Source: Methanomassiliicoccales archaeon (GTDB taxonomy: Archaea > Thermoplasmatota > Thermoplasmata > GCA-020350865). Taken from it: a stretch of DNA of 33,676 nt. Below are positions 1,226 to 33,676 of the stretch, one piece after another. The notes beneath the pieces are model-generated. The model was not told the origin of the DNA and made no database searches. It was given only the letters and a program-made list of their open reading frames with translations. The stretch is from contig CP070739.1 of assembly GCA_020347705.1 (NCBI GenBank), forward strand, positions 2,017,820 through 2,051,495, in the 5' to 3' direction. Both the position numbers and the translations under genes were made by a program. Position 1 is the first letter of the stretch. Every line of letters begins with the position of its first letter.

Positions 1226-1308
1226 CCTTTAGGTTCGTATTGCTTCATATTCCCAAACGAATAGTTAATATCTCCCTATTATCATTTATATATCAAAGGA
1301 GGTTGTGC

Positions 1309-4206
1309 ATGAAATTCGGAGTGGGCACGAAAAGGGGTATTATGACGAAGTTTACCCTTTTACTTTCGTTTCTCTTATTCTTTTCAATCCTAGACGTATT
1401 CTCCATGACGACTTATGATACCAATGAAGAGGAGCTTGTTACCGACTTTGATGAACCTCTTGACGATATGATCTTACCAAAGCTGCACGGAACGAAGGCA
1501 TCGGAGCCATATTGGACATCGCTTTCCGGCTCCTTTCCCAGCTCATTGCCCGATACTGACGATTATTTCAGCATAGATTTTGGTGATGTGAACAACGACG
1601 GTAAATTGGACATCGTCGCAGGGGCCGGGGAAAACGCAGTTCCAGGCGGGATACATTGCTGGGTCGGCGACGGTACTGGTGAATGGCAGGAGCAGTCCGA
1701 CGGACTTTCAACATCGGGGTGGTGCTCTGATGTGGAGGTGGATGATCTCAACAACGACGGCAAGCTGGATATCGCCTGCGACGGAAAGATTTACACGGGT
1801 AACGGAGGAAAAGACGGGAGTATGACCTGGACACAGCAGTCAAGTCCCGGTCCTTGGAACGGTGTGGCCTTGGGAGATATAAACGATGACGGAAACCTGG
1901 ATATAGCAACAGGACGTAATGATGGAGTAAAGGTTTGGACAGGTAACGGTGGGGCAGGAGGAGTCTTTGATTGGACACCCTCTTCCGGGGGTTTAATCAC
2001 CCAAGAGCAGTATTTCGGCGTGTATCTCGGCGATGTGAACAATGATGGCAAACTCGATATCGCAGCTGGGAGCAACAACGATACCGGCGTGAAGGTTTGG
2101 ACTGGTAACGGTGAGTCAGGAGCTTTAGCGCTCTGGACCGACGCGTTTACAGGAACAGGGCTGCCAACAACTGGATTCTATCGCCAGGTGTGCTTCGGTG
2201 ATGCCAATAACGATGGAAAGCTGGATCTTGCCGCAGCGAAGTCCCAAGGGGTTCAGTTCTGGAAAGGCAATGGTGGTGAAGGAGGATTCACGTGGACAGA
2301 GGAATCCGATGGTTTGACCGCATCCGGTAATTTCTATGGTTTGAGTTTCGGGGATGTGAACAACGACGGGAAATTGGACCTCATTGGCGCCGAGTATAAT
2401 GGTGATGGAGTACAGGTTTGGCTTGGAGATGGCGGTGAGGGAGACTCAATGAATTGGACTTCGGCGAGGGAAGGCCTACCTGGCAGTTCGAAGATCATAG
2501 ATCTGTGCCTGGGCGACGTCAACAACGACGGCAGGATTGATATAGGTGCCACCACAAGGACGCAGGGAGTTCAGGTCTGGGCCGGTAATTTGCCAGATCT
2601 GGCTATAACAGGCTGGGCATCCTACTCAACCGGTCTGCCCACAGGCTCAGGCTGGTACGATGTCATTTTCGGTGACATAGATCACGACGGTGATTTGGAC
2701 CTTGCCGCTGGAAGCAACCCCTCCACCAATCTGGGGATGAAGGTCTGGTTGGGGGACGGAAACGGAAACTGGGATGAAATCTCGGATCCGGATCTTCCAT
2801 CAAGCGGGGGCTACGATGGTTTGAGATTGATAGATGCCAATCACGACGGTGATTTGGATTTGATCGCCGGGAACAACGTTGATGGTGTGGGAAGCATCGA
2901 AGTGTATTTTGGCAACGGAAGCGGAGGTTTTGGACCTGCGACAAGACTGGGAGGCACAACAGATCGTATGGGTGGAGTGGAAGTTGCTGATATCAACAAT
3001 AACGGCAATATCGACATCGCATCCGGTTATTACTTTCCTGGTAACAAAGCTTACGTTTGGCTCGATGACGGAAGTGGAGCATGGAGTGACACACCAATAA
3101 ATCCTACACCAGATTTAGGCTATGATGACGTGGCATTCGGTGATGTGGATCACAACGGTACCATTGACCTGTTCGCAACCACACACATGAATGGATTCAG
3201 ATTTTGGCTTGGAGACGGAAACGGCAACTGGATCTTGCAGCCCCAAAATGGCCTGCCCACCGACAATTCAGGACTGGGAGCAAGTTTTGGTGATGTAAAT
3301 CATGACGGAAATCTGGATATCGCGGTTGGAGCATGGGCCACTGGACCTTTCGGTGTCCGAGTTTATACAAGCGATGGAGGGGCCGATGGAGAAGTGGATT
3401 GGACCAACTCCTCGGTGGGTCTACCCACTGCGGGAAGATATGCAGGTGTGGAACTAGGTGATATAAACAACGACGGTAACCTTGATATATTATCTGCGAA
3501 CTGCGGTGTAACCACCAACGGAATAAGCCTCTGCCTTGGCAACGGAGGTCAAGGCGGACCCATGGTTTGGACCGAGTCCGTGCTGCCTGATTTGCCGTCT
3601 TCTGGAACGTACTGGGGTGTCGCCTTTGGTGATGTGAACAATGACGGCATTTTGGATATTGCGATAACCTCGGGCAATGGAGTGGAGGTGTACATAACAC
3701 AAACCCGACCTTCGTACAGGATCAACCTCGAAGAAGGCTGGAACCTCATCTCTTTACCAATGATACAATCTGATACAAGTATCGCGGAAGTGTTCACCTC
3801 CATAGATGGAGAGTACAAGGCCGTGCAGTACTTCGATTCAAGGGATGCAAACGATCCCTGGAAGCATTATCATGTCCAAAAATTACCAATGAATGACTTG
3901 GCCGAGGTGAACCACACACAGGGGATTTGGATCCTCATCACAAAACCTGGAGGAACCACATTGACCGTCTTCGGAGATGAGATAAACACCACTCAGTCAA
4001 TCACGATTCGGCCCGGCTGGAACCTCGTTGGGTATCCTTCACTGGGTAATAAAAATAGAACCACGGCCCTGAACAACATCGATTTCGACACAGATGTGGA
4101 TTCGATCTGGACCTATGATGCCTCAGCGCAGCAATGGAAGGAGATCGGAGAACAGGATAACTTCGAGGTCTCAAAAGGTTATTGGGTTCGTTCCTTAAGG
4201 GATTAA
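1309..4206 (+). CDS. Secreted FG-GAP/VCBS double beta-propeller protein with C-terminal GWNL domain
   Basis: Start ATG 1309 is chosen because AGGAGG at 1297-1302 sits seven bases before it; an upstream in-frame TTG at 1240 has no such site. The N-terminus is a signal peptide (MTKFTLLLSFLLFFSILDV core). I count fourteen FG-GAP/VCBS-type repeats with DVNNDGKLDI-like calcium loops between about 1579 and 3680, which fits two seven-bladed propellers. Residues about 805-965 are a two-lobed domain (EGWNLISLP ... GWNLVGYPS ... GYW) also found in the genes at 4689 and 29123. The protein ends with TAA at 4204-4206, but the same frame continues as DIVWDVPL to TGA 4231-4233, matching the CVWEVPL end of the neighbouring paralogue. 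The stop therefore looks secondary. Likely role: cell-surface binding or adhesion; no enzymatic motif seen. Confidence 0.88.
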   Translation: MKFGVGTKRGIMTKFTLLLSFLLFFSILDVFSMTTYDTNEEELVTDFDEPLDDMILPKLHGTKASEPYWTSLSGSFPSSLPDTDDYFSIDFGDVNNDGKLDIVAGAGENAVPGGIHCWVGDGTGEWQEQSDGLSTSGWCSDVEVDDLNNDGKLDIACDGKIYTGNGGKDGSMTWTQQSSPGPWNGVALGDINDDGNLDIATGRNDGVKVWTGNGGAGGVFDWTPSSGGLITQEQYFGVYLGDVNNDGKLDIAAGSNNDTGVKVWTGNGESGALALWTDAFTGTGLPTTGFYRQVCFGDANNDGKLDLAAAKSQGVQFWKGNGGEGGFTWTEESDGLTASGNFYGLSFGDVNNDGKLDLIGAEYNGDGVQVWLGDGGEGDSMNWTSAREGLPGSSKIIDLCLGDVNNDGRIDIGATTRTQGVQVWAGNLPDLAITGWASYSTGLPTGSGWYDVIFGDIDHDGDLDLAAGSNPSTNLGMKVWLGDGNGNWDEISDPDLPSSGGYDGLRLIDANHDGDLDLIAGNNVDGVGSIEVYFGNGSGGFGPATRLGGTTDRMGGVEVADINNNGNIDIASGYYFPGNKAYVWLDDGSGAWSDTPINPTPDLGYDDVAFGDVDHNGTIDLFATTHMNGFRFWLGDGNGNWILQPQNGLPTDNSGLGASFGDVNHDGNLDIAVGAWATGPFGVRVYTSDGGADGEVDWTNSSVGLPTAGRYAGVELGDINNDGNLDILSANCGVTTNGISLCLGNGGQGGPMVWTESVLPDLPSSGTYWGVAFGDVNNDGILDIAITSGNGVEVYITQTRPSYRINLEEGWNLISLPMIQSDTSIAEVFTSIDGEYKAVQYFDSRDANDPWKHYHVQKLPMNDLAEVNHTQGIWILITKPGGTTLTVFGDEINTTQSITIRPGWNLVGYPSLGNKNRTTALNNIDFDTDVDSIWTYDASAQQWKEIGEQDNFEVSKGYWVRSLRD

Positions 4207-4233
4207 GATATCGTGTGGGATGTTCCGCTGTGA
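4207..4233 (+). other. In-frame continuation of the GWNL domain after the annotated stop
   Basis: Directly after TAA 4204-4206 the same frame reads DIVWDVPL and ends at TGA 4231-4233. The related proteins end CVWEVPL (stop at 7454) and CVWDVPL (remnant, stop at 4592). This shows the ancestral C-terminus, cut off by a nonsense codon or a local indel in the preceding gene. Confidence 0.7.
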
Positions 4234-4286
4234 TGCTGACACAATAGCAGTTCTAAATTGCATGCAAACACCGTCTGTTCCTTTCA

Positions 4287-4317
4287 ATCGGAACATATAA
4301 TATCAAATTGTTCTGAT
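4287..4317. repeat. Short inverted repeat in degraded intergenic region
   Basis: ATCGGAACA (4287-4295) and TGTTCTGAT (4309-4317) are inverted copies with one mismatch, separated by 13 bases. It sits directly before the ATPase remnant. It could be a hairpin or a rearrangement scar; nothing ties it to a named element. Confidence 0.35.
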
Positions 4318-4454
4318 ATATCGTAACACTTGAAGCAATGAAAGCCCTCAAGATAAAAGAGGGAATGATAATTACAGAGAAGGACGAAAGCACAGAGAAG
4401 ATTGGAAAAATGACTGTGCGCTATGTTCCGCTTTGGAAATATTTATTGTCCTAG
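4317..4454 (+). pseudogene. 3' remnant of an AAA ATPase gene (DUF4143-like C-terminus)
   Basis: From 4317 the frame reads YIVTLEAMKALKIKEGMIIT, then about 25 more residues ending VRYVPLWKYLLS and TAG at 4452-4454. This resembles the C-terminal end of archaeal AAA-type ATPases of the DUF4143/DUF234-like group, which commonly finish with a KIKEG..IT segment and a YVPLWKFLL-type end. A stop (TGA 4314) lies just upstream and no P-loop part is present, so only the last 45 or so codons survive. The family assignment is from memory of the motif; that this is a gene remnant is more secure. Confidence 0.5.
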
Positions 4455-4472
4455 AGAAGAATCTTTTTACTT

Positions 4473-4592
4473 ATCTTATACGATGCAGCCACAGGTACGT
4501 GGGACGAGATTGGGGAATTCGATAACTTCAGAATTGGTTTAGGCTACTGGTTTCATGTAAAAACAAAATGTGTGTGGGATGTGCCGCTTTAA
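4473..4592 (+). pseudogene. 3' remnant of a GWNL-domain surface protein gene
   Basis: The frame reads ILYDAATGTWDEIGEFDNF, then a segment with GLGYWFHVKTKCVWDVPL and TAA at 4590-4592. It matches the end of the second lobe of the GWNL domain in the protein ending at 7454 (YDAATKTWH ... GYWFHVKTECVWEVPL). No signal peptide, no first lobe and no start codon remain. It is a fossil of a fourth surface-protein gene, or the donor/acceptor scar of recombination between paralogues. Confidence 0.75.
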
Positions 4593-4601
4593 AAATCTCC
4601 A

Positions 4602-4610
4602 TTTTTTTTT
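4602..4610 (+). terminator. Oligo-T tract, possible transcription terminator
   Basis: Nine consecutive T follow ten bases after the stop of the surface-protein remnant. Oligo-T runs act as archaeal terminators. No stable hairpin precedes it. It may have belonged to the now-degraded gene. Confidence 0.35.
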
Positions 4611-4688
4611 AATCCAAAAATAGAAAAGCGTATAAGGAATAAGAGCAATGTATAAAATGACGCTAGTAATAGACGAAGGAGGGTTGGC

Positions 4689-7454
4689 ACGAAAAACAGG
4701 TTGACCTCATTTTGGATAGTATTCATCCTTGTAACCGGAGGATTTATCGGATTAATGAATTTTGGTACCGAGAACGTAAAAGGAGGAACTCCTGTAAGCG
4801 GACCTATATCGTCGGATAGGACATGGGATTTAACAGGTCATCCTTATTGGGTTGTAGGCGATGTAACTATAGAAGATGGTGTCACACTAACAATAGACCC
4901 CGGCGTCGAGGTGAAGTTCGACGGGTATTACAGCATATATGTCGATGGCACTCTCATGGCGATAGGTACGGAAACGAACAGAATCACCATAACAACAAAC
5001 TTATCGTTACCGTTTCCGTTTTATTGGCACAAAATTCAGATAAATTTAAATGGACAGGCTCACATAGAATACTGCAATATAACCTACTGCCTCACTGGCA
5101 TTTATCTTGGCTCGTCAAACAATACAATAGCGAACAATAGTATTTCATCAACCGACGAATATGGTCTTTACGTCATCAGTGCGCGGGACAATATAATAGC
5201 GTACAATAATATCTCAAACAACCGGAGAGTTGGTATTTATTTCGGCTCAGCGTCGAACAATACGATAATTGGAAATACAATATCATCGAATGATTGGCAT
5301 GGCATCCTTCTTGAATCGTCCTGGGACAACACAATAGCAAATAACAGCATATTCTCGAACTACGCCAATGGAATTGTTTTCTCCGGTTCATCGGACAATA
5401 CGATAATGAACAACAGCATCTTTGATAACCCGCACAGCATCGACTTCGAGAGTTCATCGAATAATGTGATAGCGAACAATAGTATCCTGAAAAACAAAGA
5501 AGGTATCCACCTTGAAACATCGTCAAACAACACAATAATGAACAACAACATCGCAAATGACGGTCGCGGCATTTACTTGCATCATTCATCGAACAACACG
5601 ATAACGACCAATAGCATCACGAATAACGGTCAGGGTATCCTTTTTTTTCAGTCGAACCCAAACAACATGATAATGAACAACAGTATCCTCGGAAATGCTC
5701 GTTTTGGATTTGATTCCGACGAATATGTAACTGCACAATTTAATTATTGGGGCACGACAGATCTGACTAAAATAGAGAGAATGGTATATAATGTAGACTA
5801 TTCAAATCCACTAAGCAAGGACCTCACAGGAATGGATTTGCAGTTCATTGGGGATGCTGTGTGGAGTGGCACAATCTATATAGACAACGGAACAATAATT
5901 AACGGCGATATAAAGGTAACTGAGGCCACTATAGTATTTAATCACTCAAAAGGACAAAACTTCATACAAGTGAACGGAAAAATGATTGTAGAAAACTCGA
6001 CACTTAAAAGCAACTACGGACTTTACACGGTACTTTATACAAATACCTCCATGGGATATATAAAAGACTCAGCGGTAATAGAACAAAGGGCGATATCATT
6101 GGAAGCAGATGGGCTGAATGTATCAGGTAACGAGTTATCCCAGGGTCGTTATGGCGTGGTCTGTGTGAACGGTGCATCGAAAAATTATATAGCGAACAAC
6201 AAATTCTTGGATAATAATTACGGTATCGTATTTTATTTATCGACAAATAATACCGCAGCCTATAACATCATAACCAGTAATTGGTATGGTGTATTCGGAG
6301 GATGGTCCTCATATAATTTGATAACGAAAAATAACATCCTTTCGAGGGATATAGGTATCCACTTTGACTCATCATCAAACAACATAATATCAAACAATAC
6401 CATTTGCTCAAGCGGAAGAGACGGCATAATTTTTACCTTGGCATCAAACAACACAATATCGAACAATATCATTTACCAGAACAACGGTAGTGGTATCACC
6501 TTTTGGTCACCATCGTCATATAACCTAATAACGAACAATAGCATATCCTCGAACAATGAGTATGGCCTCTATTTCTATAAATCTGATAGGAATAACATTA
6601 CCTATAACGATGTCTCTTCAAACAGCTTGGGCGGCGTCTACTTCCAGGATTCTTTTAACAACTCCATATTCCACAACAACTTCATCGACAATACATTTCA
6701 AGCATATGATTTAACAAACAACGGCAACCAATGGGATAATGGCTATCCTTCTGGAGGGAATTACTGGTCCGATTTTGACGAACCGAGCGAGAATGCATAT
6801 GACGATTTTATAGGATCAGATCAAATGGTGGAAGGAACCGATGGCATAGTTGATCTAGGTCCCCCGGTTGGCGGCAAGAATCCATATATTATTGATTCGG
6901 ATTCCCAGGATGAGTATCCATTGATAGATCCCATTGTTAATCGAATTTTACTCTATGAAGGCTGGAACCTGATTTCCATACCATTCATTCAGCCCGATAC
7001 AAATCTGGGGACTGTATTGTCCTCTATTAGAGATTCATATAACGCCGTGCAGTGGTTCGATATCACGGATACTTCGGATCCCTGGAAACACAACCATACT
7101 CAAAAGCCTCAATATATGAACGATCTATATGAACTCAACCATACCAGGGGCTTTTGGATTAACATAATTGAACCTGGTGGAGTGTTATTCAAATATTCTG
7201 GTACGCGGCCCACACTAAACCAATCCATCTCTTTACACCCGGGATGGAATTTGGTAGGCTACCCCTCCTTAAAAAGTTACAACAGAACCAAGGGATTGAA
7301 CAACATCTCCTTTTGGGACGACGTGGACTTCATACAATGGTACGATGCGGCTACAAAAACCTGGCATACGATGAACAAGAACGACTATTTTGTTCCCGGA
7401 AGAGGATATTGGTTCCACGTCAAAACCGAATGTGTGTGGGAAGTGCCGCTCTAA
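4689..7454 (+). CDS. Secreted NosD-like parallel beta-helix protein with C-terminal GWNL domain
   Basis: The signal peptide (KNRLTSFWIVFILVTGGFIG) is followed by many parallel beta-helix (PbH1/NosD/CASH) repeats of the form NTIxNNSIxxNxxxGI over about residues 120-370 and 490-700, a NGYPSGGNYWSDF segment typical of NosD-like surface proteins, and a two-lobed GWNL domain (about 752-921) ending CVWEVPL. Asn-rich turns supply dozens of N-glycosylation sequons. Start choice: AGGAGG at 4677-4682 is spaced exactly as in the preceding paralogue, but the aligned codon at 4689 is ACG rather than ATG. TTG at 4701 is the first conventional start but is 18 bases beyond the ribosome binding site and would shorten the basic n-region. 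Likely a glycosylated surface protein, perhaps carbohydrate-binding; no catalytic residues identified. Confidence 0.85.
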   Translation, partial: TKNRLTSFWIVFILVTGGFIGLMNFGTENVKGGTPVSGPISSDRTWDLTGHPYWVVGDVTIEDGVTLTIDPGVEVKFDGYYSIYVDGTLMAIGTETNRITITTNLSLPFPFYWHKIQINLNGQAHIEYCNITYCLTGIYLGSSNNTIANNSISSTDEYGLYVISARDNIIAYNNISNNRRVGIYFGSASNNTIIGNTISSNDWHGILLESSWDNTIANNSIFSNYANGIVFSGSSDNTIMNNSIFDNPHSIDFESSSNNVIANNSILKNKEGIHLETSSNNTIMNNNIANDGRGIYLHHSSNNTITTNSITNNGQGILFFQSNPNNMIMNNSILGNARFGFDSDEYVTAQFNYWGTTDLTKIERMVYNVDYSNPLSKDLTGMDLQFIGDAVWSGTIYIDNGTIINGDIKVTEATIVFNHSKGQNFIQVNGKMIVENSTLKSNYGLYTVLYTNTSMGYIKDSAVIEQRAISLEADGLNVSGNELSQGRYGVVCVNGASKNYIANNKFLDNNYGIVFYLSTNNTAAYNIITSNWYGVFGGWSSYNLITKNNILSRDIGIHFDSSSNNIISNNTICSSGRDGIIFTLASNNTISNNIIYQNNGSGITFWSPSSYNLITNNSISSNNEYGLYFYKSDRNNITYNDVSSNSLGGVYFQDSFNNSIFHNNFIDNTFQAYDLTNNGNQWDNGYPSGGNYWSDFDEPSENAYDDFIGSDQMVEGTDGIVDLGPPVGGKNPYIIDSDSQDEYPLIDPIVNRILLYEGWNLISIPFIQPDTNLGTVLSSIRDSYNAVQWFDITDTSDPWKHNHTQKPQYMNDLYELNHTRGFWINIIEPGGVLFKYSGTRPTLNQSISLHPGWNLVGYPSLKSYNRTKGLNNISFWDDVDFIQWYDAATKTWHTMNKNDYFVPGRGYWFHVKTECVWEVPL

Positions 7455-17279: not shown

Positions 17280-17921
17280 TTATTCGGTTCGTACAAATAT
17301 GCTCGATGCGATTTCCTTGTCCACCGCAATTTGAGTCCTGCCAATCGAAAAAACGAAAGAAGGCGACTTTTGGATCAGAGTTATTTTGCGGCCGGGAAGT
17401 ATGCCCATGGCCATGAGCTTTTTTAGGGTATTGTGGTCTTCGGCCTGAATATAAATCACCTTCCCCTTTCCTCCGCGTTTGATTTCGCTTAAGGGATGAA
17501 TGACGCGACCTGCTTTCTGACGGCGTTCCCTGCAGCATCGCCCTTTTGGAATTCTGCGACCATGCGGGCATTCGCGAGGATGGCCCAGGAGAGTGCATAC
17601 ACCTTCCTCCACCTCTCCGGAGATGAGCAGATGCTCGAATCTACATGCAGGAGATTCCATTTTTTTCTTGCTCATGTGTATCAAATCATGAAAGAGCCGC
17701 TCCGCGAGTCTATGCCTTCTGATAACACCCTCTGCCACCTCTTTTCCCTTGGTGGTTAACCTGATACCATTTTTATCTTGTTTTATGAGATTCAGATCCT
17801 TTAACTCCTCAAACACGGTTTTTTCGTCGATTTTATCCCCTTTAAAATGGCTCTTCTCCTTTTCGATCTGTGAAATCCAAAGGCTCTCCAAAACTTCTTC
17901 TGCCTCCTCTGATATATTCAT
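17280..17921 (-). CDS. DtxR-like regulator fused to a C-terminal FeoA domain
   Basis: 213 residues. About 1-65 is a short winged-helix region; 66-110 is the metal-binding/dimerisation helix with C-x-x-E-H at Cys93, Glu96, His97 (PACRFEHLL); a GHPRECPHGRRIP motif at about 113-125 is typical of iron-dependent DtxR proteins that carry a third domain. About 140-213 is a FeoA/SH3-like domain (GGKGKVIYIQ, MGILPGRKITLIQ). It overlaps the zinc-ribbon gene by four bases (ATGA), so it is translated in the feoB operon. It may sense Fe(II) and also supply the FeoA function, since no separate feoA is present. An extra CC pair at 129-130 could add a metal ligand. Confidence 0.85.
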   Translation of the reverse strand: MNISEEAEEVLESLWISQIEKEKSHFKGDKIDEKTVFEELKDLNLIKQDKNGIRLTTKGKEVAEGVIRRHRLAERLFHDLIHMSKKKMESPACRFEHLLISGEVEEGVCTLLGHPRECPHGRRIPKGRCCRERRQKAGRVIHPLSEIKRGGKGKVIYIQAEDHNTLKKLMAMGILPGRKITLIQKSPSFVFSIGRTQIAVDKEIASSIFVRTE

Positions 17922-18124
17922 AAATTGGCCTCCTTTATTTTTCTCTTTCTCCTATCACGAAGTAACTTTATAAGCTTTGGTTCAGGAAGATGTTCATACC
18001 CGCAGTTGGGACAGCATAACTTTTCACATGACGATATTGGACATGAAGAGCAAGCGCTTTCGGCCTCCTTTTCAGAGAACTCAAACCCGCAGAATTGGCA
18101 TTTGTACGTTCGCACTTCGCTCAT
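17918..18124 (-). CDS. Small zinc-ribbon protein of the feo operon
   Basis: 68 residues. It starts at ATG 18124 inside the feoB stop (ATGA overlap at 18121-18124) and its own stop overlaps the next start in the same way (17918-17921). It has C-x2-C (KCQFCGF), then Cys25, Cys28, Cys33, Cys37 and a second knuckle CCPNCGY, followed by a basic tail (LRDRRKRKIKEANL). Two zinc or iron sites are likely. Bacterial feo operons often contain a small Cys-rich protein (FeoC or a FeoB-associated protein); this may be an archaeal counterpart, but homology is not shown. Confidence 0.8.
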   Translation of the reverse strand: MSEVRTYKCQFCGFEFSEKEAESACSSCPISSCEKLCCPNCGYEHLPEPKLIKLLRDRRKRKIKEANL

Positions 18125-20160
18125 ATCAATACCCCCAATGTGGTGAGTATGATATTGAGTAGGTAACCTACAAAAAAGGCGAAGGGAAAGATGAATGCGA
18201 TGATTCCAAGTGTGATCTTTTTTCCGCGCTCTTTGTACATCATCATCACCTGGGCGATGCATGGTATGAACAGGGTCAATGTGACCGCAGTAACGGTAAG
18301 CTGTGCTATACTGAGTGTGCCACTCATATCATAAAGACCTGCTGCACCGTAATCGCGTCTAAAGAAACCGTAGATGAAAACTGGGGCCGCGGAGCCGGGA
18401 AGACCAAGGGCACCCATGAGAGGCTCCAATCCCCGAACCAAAGAAGAGAACATACCGGTGATATCTCCGAGCCACAGTAAAACACTTGCGACTATGAATA
18501 GGGGCAAAACCTCCTTGAAGTACCAAATCATCCTCGTATAGGTTTTGACAAGCACATTGGACAGTTTGGGAACCCGAAGTGGAGGCAATTCCATGAAGAA
18601 CTGGGGTTTGCCCCCAGGAATCAAATTTGAGCCCAGCCAGCCTATGAAAAGCATCACAATGAAGATCACCAAAGCCCAAGTAAAAAGTGCGAGGACACTG
18701 ATGGATAGTACTCCGAATATAACGCCCAATTGGGCCGAGCATGGAATGGCCAAGGCCAAAAGAAGGGTGGCCAGAACCTGCTCCTTTTTTGTCTCCAGAG
18801 TGCGGGTGACCAAGGTCCCCATGGTGTCACATCCCAGTCCCAGGGTCATTGGTATCACAGCCCTGCCTGAAAGCCCGATTCGCTTGAAGATCCTATCGAT
18901 TAGTAGTGAGAGCCGTGGAAGGTATCCCGAGTCCTCGAGCAACGAGAATGCCAAAAAGAAAATCCCTACTATTGGAAAAATTATGGCAACAGCATATCTC
19001 AATCCCAAGGTTATGATTCCAAACTCACCGCCTATTAAACCCCGAGCCGGCTCCCATGGCACATGATCATTTAGAAAACCGTTTAGCGCAGGATTGATAT
19101 GGTCTTCGAAGATGTTTCCCTCTATGAAATCCACGAGCTCGCCTGCACCATTCACACCCACCAAGAAGTATAGTCCGAGGATCACCATTATCAGGATAGG
19201 AATACCTGTCGAAGGACGTATTAAGGCCCGATTGATTCGCTCTTTTAAGTCCATAGGTTTTTCGCCTTCGGAAATGACGGTTCGATCCACCAGCTTGTCG
19301 ATCTGTTTCTGCCTTGAATTTGTAATCACATAATCCAAAGGCCTTGCATACATTTCTGAAACATCGTCGATAATTTGATTAACTTTATCGAATACCTCAG
19401 GGTCCTTCTGTTTAACCAGGGATTCGATATCAGAATCCTTTTGAAGAAGCAAAAGGGCCACGGCCCTCTTTCGAATCGGGTATTGGCCCTGAAGTAAATT
19501 CTCTATCTTTAAAACCGTACTCTCGATCTCGGGTCCCAACCTCACGATATGTCCTGGTGCAAGTCCAACCTTGAGGGCTGTTGATATTACCTTTCTCAGC
19601 TCCTTTAGTCCCTCTTTCTTTGTGGCCGCGGTCATAACCACAGGTGTTCTCAGTGTTTCTTCCAATGCGTTTATATCGAACTCCATTCCTTCAGCTTGTG
19701 CCTCGTCGATCATGTTGAGAACCGTAATCACAGGCAGACCGGTTTCGATGAGCTGAAGGGAAAGATGCAGCATTCGATCGATGTTCTTCGCGTCTAGGAT
19801 GTTGATGACCAAACTCGGTTTCTCTGTGAGTAGAATCTCTCTTGCCACTCTTTCCTCTTCGGTTATAGGAAGTAGGGAGTACATCCCAGGCGTGTCTATG
19901 ATCTCAACCTTCTTTCCTGATATCTCTGTTCTTCCCCTATCCACGGCAACTGTGGTGCCCGGGTAATTTGAAACAACAACATAGGCCCCTGTGAGGTCGT
20001 TAAAAATCACGCTCTTTCCCACGTTTGGATAACCCACAAGAAGGATTTTGTGTGTCTCTTTTTCTTGGTCCTGCTCCACACCCTTATTTTCAATAGAAGA
20101 TTTGGCTTTTGATTTGTGAACCTTGCGGGACATGGTGTTCAGCCCTTTATTCCCCCTCAT
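18121..20160 (-). CDS. feoB: Ferrous iron transport protein B
   Basis: 679 residues, normal for FeoB. The cytosolic GTPase domain has G1 GYPNVGKS (about 43-50), the switch YPGTTV, G3 DTPGMYSL and G4 NMID. It is followed by the helical GDI-like region and a membrane domain with two Gate repeats and the FeoB C-terminal region (PMTLGLGCDTMGT, PGSAAPVFIYGFFRRDYGAAG, FIPCIAQ). It imports Fe(II). ATG 20160 has no ribosome binding site; ATG 20133 is an alternative and would trim nine residues from the variable N-terminus. It is the first gene of an operon with ATGA overlaps to the zinc-ribbon and DtxR-FeoA genes. Two DtxR-type palindromes between TATA box and start predict iron-dependent repression. 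Confidence 0.95.
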   Translation of the reverse strand: MRGNKGLNTMSRKVHKSKAKSSIENKGVEQDQEKETHKILLVGYPNVGKSVIFNDLTGAYVVVSNYPGTTVAVDRGRTEISGKKVEIIDTPGMYSLLPITEEERVAREILLTEKPSLVINILDAKNIDRMLHLSLQLIETGLPVITVLNMIDEAQAEGMEFDINALEETLRTPVVMTAATKKEGLKELRKVISTALKVGLAPGHIVRLGPEIESTVLKIENLLQGQYPIRKRAVALLLLQKDSDIESLVKQKDPEVFDKVNQIIDDVSEMYARPLDYVITNSRQKQIDKLVDRTVISEGEKPMDLKERINRALIRPSTGIPILIMVILGLYFLVGVNGAGELVDFIEGNIFEDHINPALNGFLNDHVPWEPARGLIGGEFGIITLGLRYAVAIIFPIVGIFFLAFSLLEDSGYLPRLSLLIDRIFKRIGLSGRAVIPMTLGLGCDTMGTLVTRTLETKKEQVLATLLLALAIPCSAQLGVIFGVLSISVLALFTWALVIFIVMLFIGWLGSNLIPGGKPQFFMELPPLRVPKLSNVLVKTYTRMIWYFKEVLPLFIVASVLLWLGDITGMFSSLVRGLEPLMGALGLPGSAAPVFIYGFFRRDYGAAGLYDMSGTLSIAQLTVTAVTLTLFIPCIAQVMMMYKERGKKITLGIIAFIFPFAFFVGYLLNIILTTLGVLI

Positions 20161-21866: not shown

Positions 21867-23489
21867 ATGTTGATGAGCAGATCCGATCCCGATATGGTAA
21901 AGGCAATGCGATTTCCGTCCCTGGCCGAGGCCGTGAAAGATGCGTACAATCAAGGAGAAGAAGATGAACGCCTTGAGCCTATGGTTGTTGTGGACAAAGA
22001 AAGCTCTCCCCTGGGAAGGTTCCAGAAAGATGATTATGTAATATTCTACGACATCCGCGGTGAGCGGGAAATCGAGATCACAAGGAGCCTGACCGAGGAG
22101 GATTTTGATTCCTTCCCAGTAGTAAAAGGAGTGACCTTGAATTTCGTGACCATGATCGAGTACGACAAAAACCTCAATGCCAAGGTGGCTTACCCTCCGC
22201 AGGAGATGGTGACCGATACCTTGTGTCATGTGCTATCAGATAATAAAATAAAATTCATCAAGATCGTGGAATCTGAGAAGGCCTTCCACTTGACATATTT
22301 TTTCAACGGCAAGTCAAAAGAACCTCTCCCCAACGAAAAGAGGCTTATCGTACCTTCTCTTAGAGTTTCAAAACCAGAAGAAAGGCCAGAGATGAAGATA
22401 AGGGAGGTAACTCAGGCCATAAAAAATGAACTTAGAGGGAGAGACACTTCGATAATAATCGCAAACCTCGCCAATGTTGATGTCGTTGGTCATACTGAAT
22501 CTGAGGATGCGATAATAAAAGCGGTAGAGGCAGTAGATACCTCTCTAGGTGAAATTGTAAATGAGACTCAAAAGGAAGGAGTCACTACAATCGTGACAGC
22601 AGATCATGGTACCGTGGAAAAGTGGCTATATCCCGACGGGACAATCGATACGGGTCATACCAATAGCCAGGTTCCTTTCATTTTGATAGAGCCAGAAATA
22701 GATATTCAGAGAAATATTAGGCTCAGGGATAGCGGTGAATTGGCAGATGTTGCCCCAACCATCCTTGACATACTAGGCCTCAATAGGCCGGAGGCCATGA
22801 CAGGTGTAAGCCTTCTTGCAGATAATCCTTACAAGCATCCTAAAAAGAGGTTCCTGCTCCTGATCCTTGACGGCTGGGGCATTATCGATGAAGTTAAAGG
22901 CAATCTCATACACAAGGCAAACACACCCTCATTCGATTTTCTTTTAGATAAATTCCCGGCCATGAGACTCAAGGCCTCAGGGGAAGTGGTGGGCATGCCC
23001 AAAGGCAGCGTGGGCAACTCCGAAGTGGGTCATCTTCACATAGGAGCAGGAAGGAGGATTCCATCCGACAGATTGAGGATAGATAATGCCATTGAAAACG
23101 GTACCTTTTATGAAAATCCGTCATTTCTATGGGCCATGCACGGTGCAAAGAAAAATCGGGCCCTGCATCTTTTGGGCATCGTATCCTTTTACAGCTCCCA
23201 CGGCTCCATGGGACACCTTAAAGCCCTGTTGAAAATGGCCAAGGCCCAGGGACTCGATAAGGTCTACGTCCACTCTATTTTGGGTCGAAGGGGAGAGAAA
23301 AAAGAAAGCGGGGCCCGGTACATAGATGAAATAGAAAACTTCACCAAAAAACTTAACATCGGAAAGGTGGTATCAGTTATAGGAAGACACTGGGTACTTG
23401 ACAGGGAAGAGAACTGGGACAGGGTAGAAAAGGCCTACAGGTGCCTGGTTTTAGGCGACGCAAAAAAGGTGAAAATCCAAGAAGCCTGA
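21867..23489 (+). CDS. Circularly permuted cofactor-independent phosphoglycerate mutase
   Basis: The 540 residues hold essentially a complete 2,3-bisphosphoglycerate-independent phosphoglycerate mutase (3-phosphoglycerate to 2-phosphoglycerate, Mn-dependent) with its halves swapped. Residues about 1-315 match the usual C-terminal half: Arg64 and Arg67 (IRGER), Lys138 (ESEKAFH), Asp205 and His209 (NVDVVGH), Asp246-His247 (TADHG), His264 (GHTNS), then DVAPTILDILGL..PEAMTG. A short linker (NPYKHPKK) leads into the usual N-terminus: metal Asp335 (LILDGWGI), nucleophile Ser385 (GNSEVGH), His445, Arg507 and Arg513 (IGRHWVLDR), ending WDRVEKAYRCLVLGDAKK. These equal B. stearothermophilus Arg261, Arg264, Lys336, Asp403, His407, Asp444, His445, His462, Asp12, Ser62, His123, Arg185 and Arg191. 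Asp154 is replaced by Gly (LGRRGE for LDGRDT). Start ATG 21867; ATG 21873 is also possible. Upstream of a kinase gene by 11 bases. Confidence 0.88.
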   Translation: MLMSRSDPDMVKAMRFPSLAEAVKDAYNQGEEDERLEPMVVVDKESSPLGRFQKDDYVIFYDIRGEREIEITRSLTEEDFDSFPVVKGVTLNFVTMIEYDKNLNAKVAYPPQEMVTDTLCHVLSDNKIKFIKIVESEKAFHLTYFFNGKSKEPLPNEKRLIVPSLRVSKPEERPEMKIREVTQAIKNELRGRDTSIIIANLANVDVVGHTESEDAIIKAVEAVDTSLGEIVNETQKEGVTTIVTADHGTVEKWLYPDGTIDTGHTNSQVPFILIEPEIDIQRNIRLRDSGELADVAPTILDILGLNRPEAMTGVSLLADNPYKHPKKRFLLLILDGWGIIDEVKGNLIHKANTPSFDFLLDKFPAMRLKASGEVVGMPKGSVGNSEVGHLHIGAGRRIPSDRLRIDNAIENGTFYENPSFLWAMHGAKKNRALHLLGIVSFYSSHGSMGHLKALLKMAKAQGLDKVYVHSILGRRGEKKESGARYIDEIENFTKKLNIGKVVSVIGRHWVLDREENWDRVEKAYRCLVLGDAKKVKIQEA

Positions 23490-23500
23490 AGGTGAATAGA

Positions 23501-24577
23501 ATGACAAAAGGTATCATATCCGATTTAAATTTGCCAAAGGCCTATCCTGAGCCCACAAAGCAGGTAGAGCTTGTTCAGACCCATATATCCTACATTTTCA
23601 TCACGGATGACTTCGTCTATAAGATCAAAAAACCAGTGAATTTCGGTTTTTTGGATTTCTCAACCCTGGACAAGCGTTTGTACTACTGTCAAAAGGAAAT
23701 AGAACTGAACAAACGCCTTTCACCTGACATCTATCTCGATGTGGTTCCCATAACCGATGAAGGCGAAAAGCTAAAAGTTTCAGGAGAAGGGGAGGTCGTG
23801 GATTACGCTGTGAGGATGAAGAAAATCCCCATGGACAGGATCATGGTGACCCTGTTGGAACAAGGGAAACTGACTCCAGAGATGGTGAAGAAGGTATCTA
23901 AGAAGATCGCGGATTTCCATTCCGAGGCTGTCACGTCCTCTGCCATAGAGCAGTTCGGCACCATAAACGTCATCAAAACCAACACCGACGAGAATTTTGA
24001 GCAGACCAAGGAATATATCGGAAAGTCCATAACGCAGAATCAGTTCGATACCATAAAAAATTATACCAACACATTCTACAAATCCAAGAAAGAATTGATC
24101 AAAAAACGTATTTCTGACCACAGAATAAAGGACTGTCACGGCGATCTTCACATGCAGCATGTGTGTTTCGCAGACGACATAATCATTTTCGACTGTATCG
24201 AGTTCAACGAGAGATTTCGGTATTCTGACACGGCAGCGGACATAGCCTTCTTGGCAATGGATCTCGATTACAACGGTGCATTCGATTTATCGAAGGTTCT
24301 GATGGATGCTTACATTCAACACTCCGACGATCCCGGTGTTTTGGACATGCTCAACTTCTACAAGGTTTACCGCGCCTATGTGAGGGGCAAGGTCATAGGC
24401 TTCAAGCTGAACGACCCGCAGATACCTGCGGATGAAAAGAAGGCGGCCCAACAAACCGCGAAAAGGTACTTTTCCCTTGCCTTGGACTATGTGAAGGAGG
24501 AAAAGAGGGAGGAAAAGAAGGAAAAAAAGCAGGAGGAAAATAAGGAGGAAAACGTCCATGGAGAAGGAACCTCGTAG
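23501..24577 (+). CDS. Aminoglycoside phosphotransferase-like kinase (COG2187 type)
   Basis: 358 residues from ATG 23501, five bases after GGTGA and 11 bases after the mutase stop. The N-terminal part (LVQTHISYIFITDDFVYKIKKPVNFGFLDF, shown here across two strands of the N-lobe) is typical of COG2187; the kinase core has the Brenner-type HGDLH (DCHGDLHMQH), the metal-binding Asp in IIFDCIEF and the downstream YSDTAADIAFLAMDLDY. The C-terminus is a Lys/Glu-rich tail. In many bacteria this domain is fused to a COG0645 P-loop kinase in one polypeptide of roughly 500 residues; here the two are separate genes overlapping by 20 bases. Substrate unknown; a small-molecule hydroxyl group is expected. 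Probably co-transcribed with the mutase gene. Confidence 0.82.
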   Translation: MTKGIISDLNLPKAYPEPTKQVELVQTHISYIFITDDFVYKIKKPVNFGFLDFSTLDKRLYYCQKEIELNKRLSPDIYLDVVPITDEGEKLKVSGEGEVVDYAVRMKKIPMDRIMVTLLEQGKLTPEMVKKVSKKIADFHSEAVTSSAIEQFGTINVIKTNTDENFEQTKEYIGKSITQNQFDTIKNYTNTFYKSKKELIKKRISDHRIKDCHGDLHMQHVCFADDIIIFDCIEFNERFRYSDTAADIAFLAMDLDYNGAFDLSKVLMDAYIQHSDDPGVLDMLNFYKVYRAYVRGKVIGFKLNDPQIPADEKKAAQQTAKRYFSLALDYVKEEKREEKKEKKQEENKEENVHGEGTS

Positions 24578-25133
24578 CACTCCATTTTTGATCATCGCCT
24601 GCGGGCTCACAGGCACGGGAAAGAGCACGATACTAAACGAGGTGGCAAAGGAAAAAGACATCCTCATTCTCACTTCGGACATGATAAGAAAAGAGCTTGC
24701 AGGAATTTCACCTGCGGAGCACAGGTACGTGGAATTCGATTCTGGAATCTACTCGGAAGAATTCACGAAGAAGACCTATATTCACATGATAGAGGAGGGC
24801 AAAAAGCATATTCTGCAGGGCAGGTCCGTTATCCTGGACGCCTGTTTTCCAAAGAAATGGCAGAGAGAGAAGGCCAAAGAAGGTGCAAAGGAAGTCAACG
24901 CGCATTTTTTATGCGTACAATTCACCTGCCCGGAGGAGGAGGTTAGAGAGCGCCTTGAAAAGAGATTCGAGAGCAAAGAGGGTGTATCGGACGGAAGATG
25001 GGAGATATACCTCTCTCAAAAGGAGAGCTTCGAGGATGTAGATGAGTTTGACTCAGATTCCCATATGATCGTGGACACTTCCTTGTCAAAAGTAGATATA
25101 ATAAAAAAAATAATGGATAGGCTCAAGGCCTAG
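24558..25133 (+). CDS. P-loop kinase (COG0645 type), partner of the APH-like kinase
   Basis: 191 residues. The Walker A motif is GLTGTGKST (about 14-22), followed by [12 protein letters not shown], a Walker B-like [16 protein letters not shown], and an Arg-rich lid ([12 protein letters not shown]). This is the gluconokinase/zeta-toxin-like group usually found as the C-terminal half of COG2187-COG0645 fusions. AGGAGG lies ten bases before ATG 24558; the gene overlaps its upstream neighbour by 20 bases in the +1 frame. Its TAG shares the palindrome CTAG with the stop of the convergent ahcY gene. Substrate unknown. Confidence 0.82.
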
Positions 25134-29122: not shown

Positions 29123-32100
29123 TTGAAAGGGAAATTTCCATCTATTACGATTTGTGTTGTTTTAAGCGCTACGATGTTTGCTTCAGTGGATATTGGGTTT
29201 GAGGTTGTGGACAGGATTAAGGGGACTACGATTTATGTGCCCACAGATTATTCAACGATACAAGAGGCGATAGATGCAGCGAATGATGGGGATACTGTTT
29301 TTGTTAATAGTAAAGGAGGTCATTTTGGAAGTTATCGTGAGAATTTAATTATATCTAAGAGTATTGAATTAATAGGCGAGGATAGAGAAACCACGAGGAT
29401 TGAAGGTGATGCATATCGTTGGTATGGTAATCCAATTATCCGTATATTTGCAGATGATGTGACTATTTCAGATTTCTCACTTTTTTTGGGTGGTGATGGT
29501 ATAGTTACGGAGGGATGTAATACCAATATTTCTGATAACAAATTCTTTTGGAACCTCTTTAGTGGCATCACTCTTTGGTCATCTAACAATATCGTTACAG
29601 ACAATATCATTACAGGGGGTATAAATGGCATATTAATCGGCGGTTCAAGAGGAAACCAAATCACAAATAATATAATGGAAGGAAGTGGGATCTCCCTTTG
29701 GGGATCTCATCTTGAGGATTGGACCACTAATAATATCGACACTTCTAATACAGCAAATGGGAAGCCAATTTATTATTGGAAAAATAGGAATGGTGGGACT
29801 ATCCCTGGGGGGGCTGGTCAAGTAATACTTGCTAACTGTACAAATGTGAGGGTTGAAAATCAAGATCTTTCAGATGCAACTATTGGAGTTAAACTTGGTT
29901 TTTCATCAAATAATTATATACTCAATAATGATGTTTCAACCAATTGGTATGATATATGTGCCATTAATTCAAATAAAAACTACATAAATGATAATACAGC
30001 ATCAAATGGTATATATGGAATAAGACTATCAAATTCTCACGGGAATAATATTGCAGGCAATATAATTTCAGATAATTATGTTGAAGGTATTTATTATACA
30101 AACTCCCATGAAAATATAATAATGGATAATTATATTTCAAATAATGGGCATTTGCCTTGGCCGGAGGATTTTGGAGAGGAACCTTGGTTAGAGGGATCAT
30201 GGGGGAGAGAGGATGCGGGGATAACATTAGAAGGGTCTTCGAACAACTGGATTTATTATAACGAGCTCGTCGATAATATAATTCAGGCGCAAGATAATCG
30301 ACATGATAATCTTTGGGATAATGGGTATCCTTTTGGAGGTAATTACTGGTCTGATTATTATGGTGTCGACAACTTTAAAGGTCCAAACCAGGACATTCCC
30401 GGAAGTGATGGGATTGGGGATACTCCTTACGTAATCGACTCTAATTCTAGGGATAAATATCCATTGATGGGGCCTTATTCTCCTTCTCCTCCAGATTTGA
30501 GGTTATTTGATTGGGGTATAGATATTACGCCTCCAAGTCCTATTATTGATGGTATGACCATTACTGTTAACGCAACGGTCTACAGTTTTAGTATATCAGC
30601 ATCTAATATCGATGTTAAATTCTACAACGGAGACCCTGATACGAATAATGACCAAATCCCAGATCCAACTGCCCTGGAAATTGGAAGTGAGGTTATCGAT
30701 ATAACAAAAGATTCTTTATCAGTAGCATCGATACAGTGGATCCCTCCAACAATAGGTACATATGAAATATATATTTGGGTAGATCCATACAATAACATTC
30801 AGGAGGAAAATGATACAAATAATTTAAATTATAAAGGCTTTGTGATTATTCCTAGGGATTTATTTTTATCAAACTCGGATATCCAATTCACTCCTCCTAG
30901 TCCGGTAATTAATGACACTACAATAACAATCAATGCAACAATATTTTGTTCTGGTAGATCCATTTCAAATGTTGAAGTTAAATTTTACAATTGTGACCCT
31001 GATACAGAAGACGATATGATTCCCGATGGAGTTGCAGAGGAAATCGGAAATGTAACAATCGATATTATGAAAGATTCTTCAGCTTTCGCTATAATTCAAT
31101 GGATTCCTCCAACTGTAGAGATATATCAAATCTTTGTTTGGGTAGATCCGATGAATACAACGATTGAATTAAACGAAAGGAATAACTTAGCGACGAAAAC
31201 GCTATCCGTATTTAATTGGATTGATTCTTTTTACAATTTCACAAAGACAGAATCAAAACAATGTGTCGAGATTAACGATGGTGATGTTGTTCTTGATTTA
31301 CCCACTAAATTTGATTTCGATGCCTCAGACGAGGGATTCAGTCTTGAGAGTGACCAAATACATAGTCATATCTATTGGGATTCTAATAGCGGTAGGATCT
31401 ATTTTCGAGCTAACAATCACGATCCTAAAGATGAGATGTTTATAAAACCCCTCTCTAGAACCATTAACGAAAATAGTAGTAGTTGGACTTTAAGTGCGAG
31501 GTTTAGGATAACGGTCCAAGGAAAATGGCAGTATGCAATGCCCCTCTTCATCGCAAATTCAAATGTTGAGTCGATTCGATGTGACCCTAGTTCAATATAT
31601 TTTGGCTATGACTCAAATTCAAATACTATCCGTGCTAGATATAGGGATTCAAATGGCAATACCCGAATTTATATATCTCGTTCGGGGAACGTCAATATAG
31701 AATACCTTGTAAGAGTCTTATACGATAATATAACAAAGAATTTAAAACTTCAAATTCGAAATCAAAATGATGTTTTATTAAAAGAAGGTTCATACGTTAT
31801 AGGGACCAATCCCTTTGATGGTTTTACGTTTGGAAAAATAGGTGTTGGAACAGATGCCTATTGTGGTCATCCTGATCCTGTGTGCAGGGGATGGACGGAT
31901 GATATAATATATTTTCAAATTAATAACAAAAGCGGAAAGCTCATCTCAAAACCAATAACACTCCCATCTGACAAAGTGTGGTCTAAATTATATATAAATA
32001 AAACAGAGCCGTCAAACGCTTACATTAATGTAACCATTATTGATGCCGCCTCAGGTGAGCCGATACCTAATTTCAAAGATTTAACAGGTGACATAATTGA

Positions 32101-33676
32101 TCTTACAACCCTTGATCCAATTATATTCCCGTCAATAAAGCTAGTCGGTAATTTTACAGAAAGTGCTATGGCCTCTCCAAAACTCCATTTTTGGTCGATA
32201 AATTGGAAAGCCGTACCTTTTTCTATACCCCTTAAAAAAGGTTGGAATCTACTTTCAATTCCTCAAATTTTAACGGATAATCATCTTCAAACTGTATTGC
32301 AATCAATTGATGGATTTTATGATTCTGTGCAATGGTATGATGCTACTGACTTGAATGATCCTTGGAAACATTATCATACCTCAAAACCTCCTGATATGAA
32401 CGATCTAAATGAAATTAACCATAAAATGGGATTTTGGATAAATATTATTGAACCTAATGGAACAATTTTTAATGGTTGTGCTTTACCAACAAACAATCAA
32501 TTTATTTCTTTATACGAAGGATGGAATCTAGTCGGCTACCCGTCAACCTCGAACAGACTTAGAGACAGCGCCTTAAACAATTTGGAGTTTGGCATTGATA
32601 TTGATTTTATTTGGACATTCGATGCCTCAACACAAAAATGGAATGAAATAACAGAATCTGATTACTTTAAATTGGGCAAAGGCTATTGGATCCATGCCAA
32701 ATATGATTGTGAATGGCTTGTATTCTCGTCAATATTAAACTTGAATATGAATAGGTACTATTCTAGTATTCAAGAAGCCATAGATCATGCAAACTCTCAT
32801 GATACAATTAAAATCCCTCCGGGTACCTACAACGAAGAATTGACCATTATCAAACCCATTACACTCATAGGTGAAAACAATAAAACCACGATAATAAAAG
32901 GTAACTTAAATCCTACTATTGAAATCTCATCCCACAATGTCACCATTAGTAATCTCAACTTACCTAATGGACCTTACGGAGTTTATGTTACAGATTCCAA
33001 GGATATCACCATCACGAACAATGTGATAAGTGATCACAGGATCGGTATCTATGCTTACAATTCCTCGATAATAATTTCAAACAATACTATTTCGAACAAT
33101 CCGAAAGGAACAGGTGGAGCAGGCATAAGATTGATTGATTGCAAGGATTCGATAATCGAATATAATTCAATCAGAGACATCGTTTATAGCGTGTACTTGA
33201 TGGACTCCCATACTATTATTAAAAATAATTTGATTTCTCCAACCGATGGATACGATGATAGACTGGACAGTATTGGTATAGCATTGTATCATGGTTCAAA
33301 TGCAACTGTTATCAATAACACAATCAAGGGCGGGGATGTGGGAATCGGTATAGAATATTACTCTTTTCCACTGATCGAAGGAAATGCGATTTCTTGCTCA
33401 GAATATTACGGAGTTTTGATCAAGAATTTTGGCTCTCCAATTTTAAATAATAACGTTATCGAGTATTGCAAGGTGTATGGGATATTCTCTAACCATGGAA
33501 CTGAAGTATATATTACAAATAACACCATGATGAACAATGATATTTTGCTCTGTAATTCGACTATCAACAACCTGTGGTTAATCAACGGAAATGCGACCAC
33601 AATCAATAGCACAATGGTAGGTTATACTATTGACGGCGGAATCCTCATCGTTCAATGGTATTTGCATGTACGGGTC
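29123..33676 (+). CDS. Giant surface protein: NosD-like beta-helices, CARDB domains and internal GWNL domain (3' end outside window)
   Basis: One open frame from TTG 29123 (GGGGTGAT just upstream) to the last base, 1518 codons without a stop, so the gene continues beyond the window. Domains: signal peptide (KGKFPSITICVVLSATMFAS); a NosD-like beta-helix (about 38-450) opening IYVPTDYSTIQEAIDAANDG and closing NGYPFGGNYWSDYYG; two CARDB-type beta-sandwich domains (about 458-575 and 578-698, each with FYNxDPDT and QWIPPT.. .YxIxxWVDP); a beta-rich region of about 330 residues with a TDDIIYFQI segment suggesting a lectin-like fold; a two-lobed GWNL domain (about 1035-1196); and a second beta-helix from about 1205 (SIQEAIDHANSHDTIKI). 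N-glycosylation sequons abound. Base composition is clearly AT-richer than the metabolic genes. Probable surface or adhesion protein. Confidence 0.85.
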   Translation, partial: MKGKFPSITICVVLSATMFASVDIGFEVVDRIKGTTIYVPTDYSTIQEAIDAANDGDTVFVNSKGGHFGSYRENLIISKSIELIGEDRETTRIEGDAYRWYGNPIIRIFADDVTISDFSLFLGGDGIVTEGCNTNISDNKFFWNLFSGITLWSSNNIVTDNIITGGINGILIGGSRGNQITNNIMEGSGISLWGSHLEDWTTNNIDTSNTANGKPIYYWKNRNGGTIPGGAGQVILANCTNVRVENQDLSDATIGVKLGFSSNNYILNNDVSTNWYDICAINSNKNYINDNTASNGIYGIRLSNSHGNNIAGNIISDNYVEGIYYTNSHENIIMDNYISNNGHLPWPEDFGEEPWLEGSWGREDAGITLEGSSNNWIYYNELVDNIIQAQDNRHDNLWDNGYPFGGNYWSDYYGVDNFKGPNQDIPGSDGIGDTPYVIDSNSRDKYPLMGPYSPSPPDLRLFDWGIDITPPSPIIDGMTITVNATVYSFSISASNIDVKFYNGDPDTNNDQIPDPTALEIGSEVIDITKDSLSVASIQWIPPTIGTYEIYIWVDPYNNIQEENDTNNLNYKGFVIIPRDLFLSNSDIQFTPPSPVINDTTITINATIFCSGRSISNVEVKFYNCDPDTEDDMIPDGVAEEIGNVTIDIMKDSSAFAIIQWIPPTVEIYQIFVWVDPMNTTIELNERNNLATKTLSVFNWIDSFYNFTKTESKQCVEINDGDVVLDLPTKFDFDASDEGFSLESDQIHSHIYWDSNSGRIYFRANNHDPKDEMFIKPLSRTINENSSSWTLSARFRITVQGKWQYAMPLFIANSNVESIRCDPSSIYFGYDSNSNTIRARYRDSNGNTRIYISRSGNVNIEYLVRVLYDNITKNLKLQIRNQNDVLLKEGSYVIGTNPFDGFTFGKIGVGTDAYCGHPDPVCRGWTDDIIYFQINNKSGKLISKPITLPSDKVWSKLYINKTEPSNAYINVTIIDAASGEPIPNFKDLTGDIIDLTTLDPIIFPSIKLVGNFTESAMASPKLHFWSINWKAVPFSIPLKKGWNLLSIPQILTDNHLQTVLQSIDGFYDSVQWYDATDLNDPWKHYHTSKPPDMNDLNEINHKMGFWINIIEPNGTIFNGCALPTNNQFISLYEGWNLVGYPSTSNRLRDSALNNLEFGIDIDFIWTFDASTQKWNEITESDYFKLGKGYWIHAKYDCEWLVFSSILNLNMNRYYSSIQEAIDHANSHDTIKIPPGTYNEELTIIKPITLIGENNKTTIIKGNLNPTIEISSHNVTISNLNLPNGPYGVYVTDSKDITITNNVISDHRIGIYAYNSSIIISNNTISNNPKGTGGAGIRLIDCKDSIIEYNSIRDIVYSVYLMDSHTIIKNNLISPTDGYDDRLDSIGIALYHGSNATVINNTIKGGDVGIGIEYYSFPLIEGNAISCSEYYGVLIKNFGSPILNNNVIEYCKVYGIFSNHGTEVYITNNTMMNNDILLCNSTINNLWLINGNATTINSTMVGYTIDGGILIVQWYLHVRV

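Follow-up and report, generated by a model that had tools for sequence, protein, structure and literature searches.

A circularly permuted family related to cofactor-independent phosphoglycerate mutase, with an exchanged substrate pocket

Background

Natural circular permutation of central-metabolism enzymes is rare, and a reading frame in a 33,676-nucleotide stretch of a Methanomassiliicoccales genome (hereafter the window) raises the question of whether it encodes such a permutant of cofactor-independent phosphoglycerate mutase (iPGM) and, if so, whether the protein still interconverts 3- and 2-phosphoglycerate (3PG and 2PG). The canonical enzyme follows a phosphoserine route in which the substrate is held electrostatically at the surface of the transferase domain (PMC5382265, PMC8113725).

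Order of the reading frame

The frame encodes 540 residues from an ATG start and is single and intact, with no internal stop (Table 1). Residues 20–317 of its product aligned with residues 217–509 of the B. stearothermophilus iPGM (198 bits; phmmer against the PDB, 1ejj) and residues 326–532 with residues 3–210 (177 bits), and no reference residue was aligned twice across the two pieces. Pfam Metalloenzyme and iPGM_N each matched the frame in two pieces, with iPGM_N profile positions 133–217 preceding positions 1–142 along the host genome, and TIGR01307 matched the protein as two inverted pieces at 473 bits (cut-off 331). The full-length model NF003897 scored 359 bits, below its cut-off of 862, a score that may have been lowered by the permutation itself. 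The whole length of iPGM is covered by homology, but the canonical N-to-C order of the motifs is absent; collinearity with normal iPGM was looked for, and an order inverted at reference positions 210/217 was found instead.

The new termini fall at reference positions 210–217, inside the transferase domain as the preliminary description of this locus had proposed, in a loop that we infer to be surface-exposed and that the model's secondary structure places between two helices, RWDRVEKAY and LECIEDSY. The old C-terminus and the old N-terminus are separated by about eight residues in the window protein, and the distance from MTGxSL to LDGWG is 14–23 residues in nearly all permuted members. The permuted frame itself had been described correctly, but the true end of the protein (...GDAKKVKIQEA) lies a few residues past the one quoted.

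Could a chimeric assembly, or frameshifted neighbouring genes, mimic such a permutation? We found no evidence in favour of this reading, to which we give virtually no credence: the linker is short and conserved in length, and single frames in the permuted order occur in independent assemblies of many phyla, which excludes an assembly error at the junction and equally the possibility that related genomes lack the order. As a single frame kept across independent genomes, the gene is a natural circular permutant within the iPGM family.

A leftover of a tandem duplication was also considered and rejected, as the pieces corresponding to 217–509 and 3–210 do not overlap and no second iPGM_N was found in the host genome.

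AlphaFold2, run with the family alignment, gave a model with a pLDDT of 88.5 and a pTM of 0.84. The block containing the linker (residues 321–330) has a mean pLDDT of 87, whereas confidence is very low for the first 14 residues and the active-site loop block 471–480 is less certain, at 66. Foldseek returned only iPGM structures at E ≤ 0.001 (probability 1.00, TMq 0.37–0.50), aligning about 300 of the 540 residues because the aligner is sequential and the protein permuted; this result supports a joined, whole fold, short of proof. In the predicted fold the native iPGM ends would be joined by the short linker within the phosphatase domain and the two-domain architecture would be preserved.

Table 1. 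Features of the permuted gene and its downstream neighbours, in window coordinates (residue numbers before an equals sign are those of the window protein, those after it are reference iPGM numbers)
Feature	Position	Strand	Basis
Complete circularly permuted iPGM-family ORF, 540 aa	21867..23489	+	ORF calling, Pfam, phmmer, TIGR01307
Residues 20–317 = iPGM 217–509: second part of transferase domain, then C-terminal part of phosphatase domain	21924..22817	+	phmmer to 1ejj
R64-G-E66-R67 = R261 / D263→E / R264; substrate arginines kept	22056..22067	+	Family alignment
K138 = K336, kept	22278..22280	+	Family alignment
D205, H209 = D403/H407 metal ligands, kept	22479..22493	+	Family alignment
D246-H247 = D444/H445 metal ligands, kept	22602..22607	+	Family alignment
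H264 = H462 metal ligand, kept	22656..22658	+	Family alignment
Linker from native C-terminus to native N-terminus, ~8 aa	22818..22841	+	phmmer, family comparison
Residues 326–532 = iPGM 3–210: N-terminal part of phosphatase domain, then first part of transferase domain	22842..23462	+	phmmer
D335 = D12 metal ligand (LDGWG), kept	22869..22871	+	Family alignment
S385 = S62 phosphoserine nucleophile (GNSEVGH), kept	23019..23021	+	Family alignment
SFYSSHGS loop 440–447 in place of S-D-G-G-V-H-S-H; H445 = H123, kept	23184..23207	+	Fixed in all permuted sequences
GRRGE 473–477 in place of D151-G-R-D154-T/V	23283..23297	+	82/82 permuted, 0/70 canonical
R507, R513 = R185/R191 substrate arginines, kept	23385..23405	+	Family alignment
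APH-like kinase, N-terminal half of split COG2187-type protein	23501..24577	+	Weak APH(3') match only
AAA_33/Zeta-like P-loop kinase, overlapping the APH-like gene	24558..25133	+	Domain match

Distribution and origin of the permuted family

Scanning 84,980 species genomes yielded 80 loci with relatives. When these were classified by motif order, a single locus (L082) was canonical and three (L069, L076 and L080) were fragments; the permuted gene or its fragments are carried by 79 further loci in independent genomes, and the remaining scanned loci are about 50–59% identical to the window protein and collinear with its permuted order. The taxa include Syntrophaceae and other Deltaproteobacteria (Desulfobacterota), Chloroflexota/Anaerolineae, Zixibacteria, Aminicenantes, candidate division B38, Eisenbacteria, Neomarinimicrobiota, Planctomycetota, Armatimonadetes, Chitinispirillaceae and Polyangiaceae. 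The permuted two-piece pattern recurred in all 40 genomes of a set drawn from the scan loci, and in G098 the two permuted pieces lie on separate contigs.

The permuted form is widespread, yet it is in the minority. About 12 of the 247 genomes sampled from the phylum of Syntrophaceae carry it, other matches there being mostly single-piece and canonical. From Chloroflexota 301 genomes were sampled, 150 of which had matches and two of which were permuted (one of them the genome at the centre of the sample); permuted matches scored at least 809 bits and canonical ones at most 295 bits per piece, with none between. The matches listed from plasmid and phage collections were all of the two-piece canonical type and at most 42% identical.

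We rotated 107 permuted rows (81 unique) to the canonical order and aligned them with 43 canonical iPGMs. The resulting tree groups every permuted sequence in a single clade (support 0.988) on a long stem branch (0.77).

The phylum to which the window's genome belongs is archaeal, and Rpb5, an archaeal/eukaryotic RNA polymerase subunit that among the controls was found in archaea only, was present in 12 of 12 relatives of the host. The host assembly is a single contig of 3.2 Mb rated 81% complete, and neither an archaeal SSU rRNA nor Rpb5 was matched in it, although Rpb5 is present in those 12 relatives; the assembly may therefore be incomplete.

The host is the only permuted genome among 243 of its phylum, in which 43 others had matches, nearly all of them full-length, single-piece and canonical. 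No iPGM_N match was obtained in any of 59 host relatives, one of them a congener, and the nearest permuted relatives of the window protein are bacterial (L003 from Aminicenantes at 59% identity, then L005, L006, L007 and L004). Given these three observations, the simplest account of the distribution is that the archaeon gained the permuted gene from bacteria.

Active site and rebuilt pocket

At the level of catalytic residues, the permuted and canonical groups have much in common. The metal ligands D12, D403, H407, D444, H445 and H462 (reference numbering), the nucleophile S62 and the residues H123, H339, R153, R261, R264 and K336 are invariant in both, and R185 and R191 are each kept in all permuted sequences but one. 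The residue pairs that had been picked out for their native spacing (R64/R67, D205/H209, D246/H247 and R507/R513) were correctly assigned and are invariant in a 46-sequence family alignment. The conserved set of metal ligands, serine and arginines argues that the phosphoserine step is kept.

At 17 positions of the rotated alignment the permuted and the canonical sequences are fixed for different residues, and most of these positions neighbour functional residues: positions 119, 122 and 124 adjoin H123, positions 151, 152 and 154 adjoin R153, position 263 lies between R261 and R264, positions 404 and 409 adjoin D403/H407, position 447 adjoins H445 and position 461 adjoins H462. Relative to the canonical enzyme the substitutions include D263E, M404V, N447T and A461G. 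In the numbering of the window protein, the permuted-type residues are F441, S444, G446, G473, R474, G476, E66, V206, E211, T249, W253, G263 and S267.

Two motifs summarise the exchange. All 82 permuted sequences have GRRGE and none of the 70 canonical ones does, whereas DGRD shows the reverse pattern (70 of 70 canonical, 0 of 82 permuted), and SF(F/Y)SSHG replaces the canonical S-D-G-G-V-H loop in every permuted sequence. In all 81 unique permuted sequences Asp151 and Asp154 are lost and Arg474 and Glu477 gained; the replacement of Asp154 by Gly noted earlier corresponds to Gly476 of the window protein. An intermediate, canonical in order but with a permuted-type pocket, was not seen among the 70 canonical sequences, which came from the samples of Desulfobacterota, the archaeal phylum and Chloroflexota and from other sources. 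Permutation is thus perfectly linked to the exchange of the pocket, which is our main new result.

Asp154 of the canonical enzyme reportedly takes part in substrate contact or in acid/base chemistry, according to the work on 1EJJ and 1O98. With both aspartates lost and an arginine and a glutamate gained, unchanged 3PG/2PG chemistry is hard to reconcile with the permuted pocket unless Glu477 replaces Asp154. A shift in mechanism or substrate, which the preliminary description had raised as a possibility, is the better-supported reading, as the pocket is rebuilt in every permuted sequence. From the residues that are kept and exchanged, the protein probably acts on a changed substrate, an acidic phospho-compound distinct from 3PG and 2PG, as a mutase or phosphotransferase or, with lower probability, as a phosphatase. 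In such a reaction Ser385 would accept the phosphoryl group from the substrate, the di-metal site and the serine maintaining the phosphoenzyme step, the arginines and lysine conserved in the transferase domain would hold the dephosphorylated moiety, and Glu477 is a candidate for the replacement acid/base. Since Lys336 and the full set of substrate arginines are retained, 3PG and 2PG may still bind.

Other phosphoglycerate mutases in the carrier genomes

A second, canonical phosphoglycerate mutase (PGM), whose presence had been proposed as a check, does exist in the host: a full-length ApgM (G000:C1:2291519-2292697) matched at 463 bits, with PRK04024 at 566 bits (cut-off 489). A dPGM was not matched in the host genome. 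Glycolysis in the host would be served by this separate ApgM. Another PGM candidate is present in 37–38 of the 40 permuted-gene genomes, with ApgM over its cut-off in 35 and a canonical iPGM in five, four of which overlap with the ApgM set; G089 has a canonical iPGM only, without ApgM, G073 has a broken ApgM match and histidine-phosphatase matches, and G087 has a histidine-phosphatase match. In two Thermoflexales MAGs (G090 and G093, with loci L060 and L065) neither ApgM nor canonical iPGM was found on the longer contigs that the search covered and the histidine-phosphatase matches were weak, so the permuted enzyme could be the sole PGM of these two genomes.

These data bear on whether the protein is after all a genuine PGM, with Glu477 and Arg474 standing in for Asp154 and Asp151, that acts as a redundant isoenzyme beside ApgM. 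Such a function would fit the retention of the metal ligands, S62, H123, R153, R261, R264 and K336 and, nearly so, of R185 and R191, the passing of the TIGR01307 equivalog cut-off and the two Thermoflexales genomes with no other clear PGM. Nevertheless, every canonical sequence examined has Asp151 and Asp154 and every permuted one has lost both, nearly all carrier genomes hold another candidate and the NF003897 cut-off was missed (with the reservation about permuted scores given above), and we regard this reading as rather unlikely. Co-occurrence by itself has no power to exclude PGM activity, since two PGM types per bacterium are common (PMC2964296). The view of the gene as a permuted version of a central glycolytic enzyme, taken in the preliminary description, and with it the label 'glycolytic iPGM', is doubtful because D151 and D154 are lost and the H123 loop is changed in 81 of 81 sequences and another PGM is nearly always present, ApgM in the host.

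The canonical iPGMs of Desulfobacterota include a further class of greater length (about 550 residues, 190–227 bits against iPGM_N). Its members include L088, L089 and L090, which are 35–38% identical to E. coli GpmM, and others such as those of G136, G241, G228 and G302 (L146–L149). Where a Desulfobacterota genome has a canonical iPGM beside the permuted gene, it is of this longer class.

Gene neighbourhoods

In the window the APH-like gene is probably co-transcribed with the permuted gene, its ATG at 23501 lying just past the stop at 23489, and the AAA_33/Zeta-like gene is its probable C-terminal partner. COG2187, to which type we presume this pair to belong, is usually one fused protein. 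In none of the other loci examined does the split pair adjoin the permuted gene. Elsewhere in the window, positions 1240–7454 and 29123–33676 encode very large, repeat-rich surface-type proteins (FG-GAP, NosD/right-handed beta-helix, CARDB), and at 17280–20160 FeoB adjoins an iron regulator with DtxR/FeoA domains.

In 31 loci (L010, L014, L029, L030, L036 and 26 others), all of them neighbourhoods of the Desulfobacterota type, a macro-domain gene of the O-acetyl-ADP-ribose deacetylase type lies 3' of the permuted gene. The gap has a median of about 4 nt and is usually at most 7 nt or an overlap, often of the stop codon, and the two genes are likely to be translationally coupled. The whole nlpD-pcm-permuted gene-macro block is syntenic in Desulfobacterota. 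Three other loci share a sulfotransferase: L054 (2953–8739) has the run cysD-cysNC-permuted gene-sulfotransferase, in L056 (4864–8710) the permuted gene is flanked by a sulfotransferase gene on one side and an inositol-monophosphatase/CysQ-type gene on the other, and in L040 (4680–5900) it follows the same sulfotransferase, the L054 copy being about 65% identical to those of the other two loci. This is a possible sulfation cluster; the three loci come from a single sampling project (Zod_Metabat), and one transfer may underlie them all. Since no neighbourhood common to all phyla was found among the permuted loci, and the Desulfobacterota block is syntenic as a whole, the neighbouring genes point to no particular substrate.

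In three Chloroflexota loci (L004, L007 and L027) a histidine-phosphatase gene lies 3' of the permuted gene, an association that would suit a phosphatase in which water hydrolyses the phosphoserine, return transfer having been uncoupled through the loss of the transferase-pocket acids D151 and D154 while the phosphatase machinery stayed intact. The transferase domain is, however, complete and strongly constrained, its arginines and a set of newly gained residues being invariant, which a plain phosphatase would not need, and we hold simple hydrolysis to be improbable. For the family as a whole, by a narrow margin, we favour a permuted iPGM with an exchanged substrate pocket that would act as a serine-phosphoenzyme mutase on another phosphorylated metabolite, spread over bacterial phyla and at least one archaeon and labelled 'phosphoglycerate mutase' in databases.

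Comparison with known systems

The permuted family is apparently undescribed: a search of 5.39 million open-access papers turned up no natural permutant of a phosphoglycerate mutase, and the term permutation is absent from a survey of PGMs in 702 genomes (PMC2964296). Since the permuted proteins pass the cut-off for 'phosphoglycerate mutase', metabolic reconstructions of uncultured bacteria probably place them in glycolysis. If their substrate is indeed another one, a phospho-metabolite reaction common to Syntrophales, Anaerolineae and others is absent from current maps. One fixed active-site change in all permuted and no unpermuted sequences also makes this a clean case in which to ask whether a switch of substrate or of domain motion was made possible by the permutation.

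The closest known system is iPGM (GpmI/GpmM; B. stearothermophilus 1EJJ and 1O98), which shares the metal ligands, Ser62, His123, the substrate arginines and lysine and full-length homology, at no more than 38% identity to the window protein in the fold-search alignments; the window protein differs in its permutation at 210/217 and in having GRRGE for DGRD and SF(F/Y)SSHG for the S-D-G-G-V-H loop. ApgM (TIGR00306), of the same alkaline phosphatase superfamily, matched weakly over the metal-binding C-terminal region (30.5 bits), and the host's own ApgM is a separate, full-length canonical gene. Phosphopentomutase-type mutases follow a phosphoenzyme logic, and phosphopentomutase and other mutases of the metalloenzyme superfamily likewise matched weakly in the metal-binding region (46 bits), but over only about 140 residues and far under the cut-off of 254. 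As in natural circular permutants generally, a short linker connects the native ends and the new ones are placed in a loop. The superfamily is thus a known one and its phosphoserine logic is probably unchanged, whereas the topology and the pocket are new.
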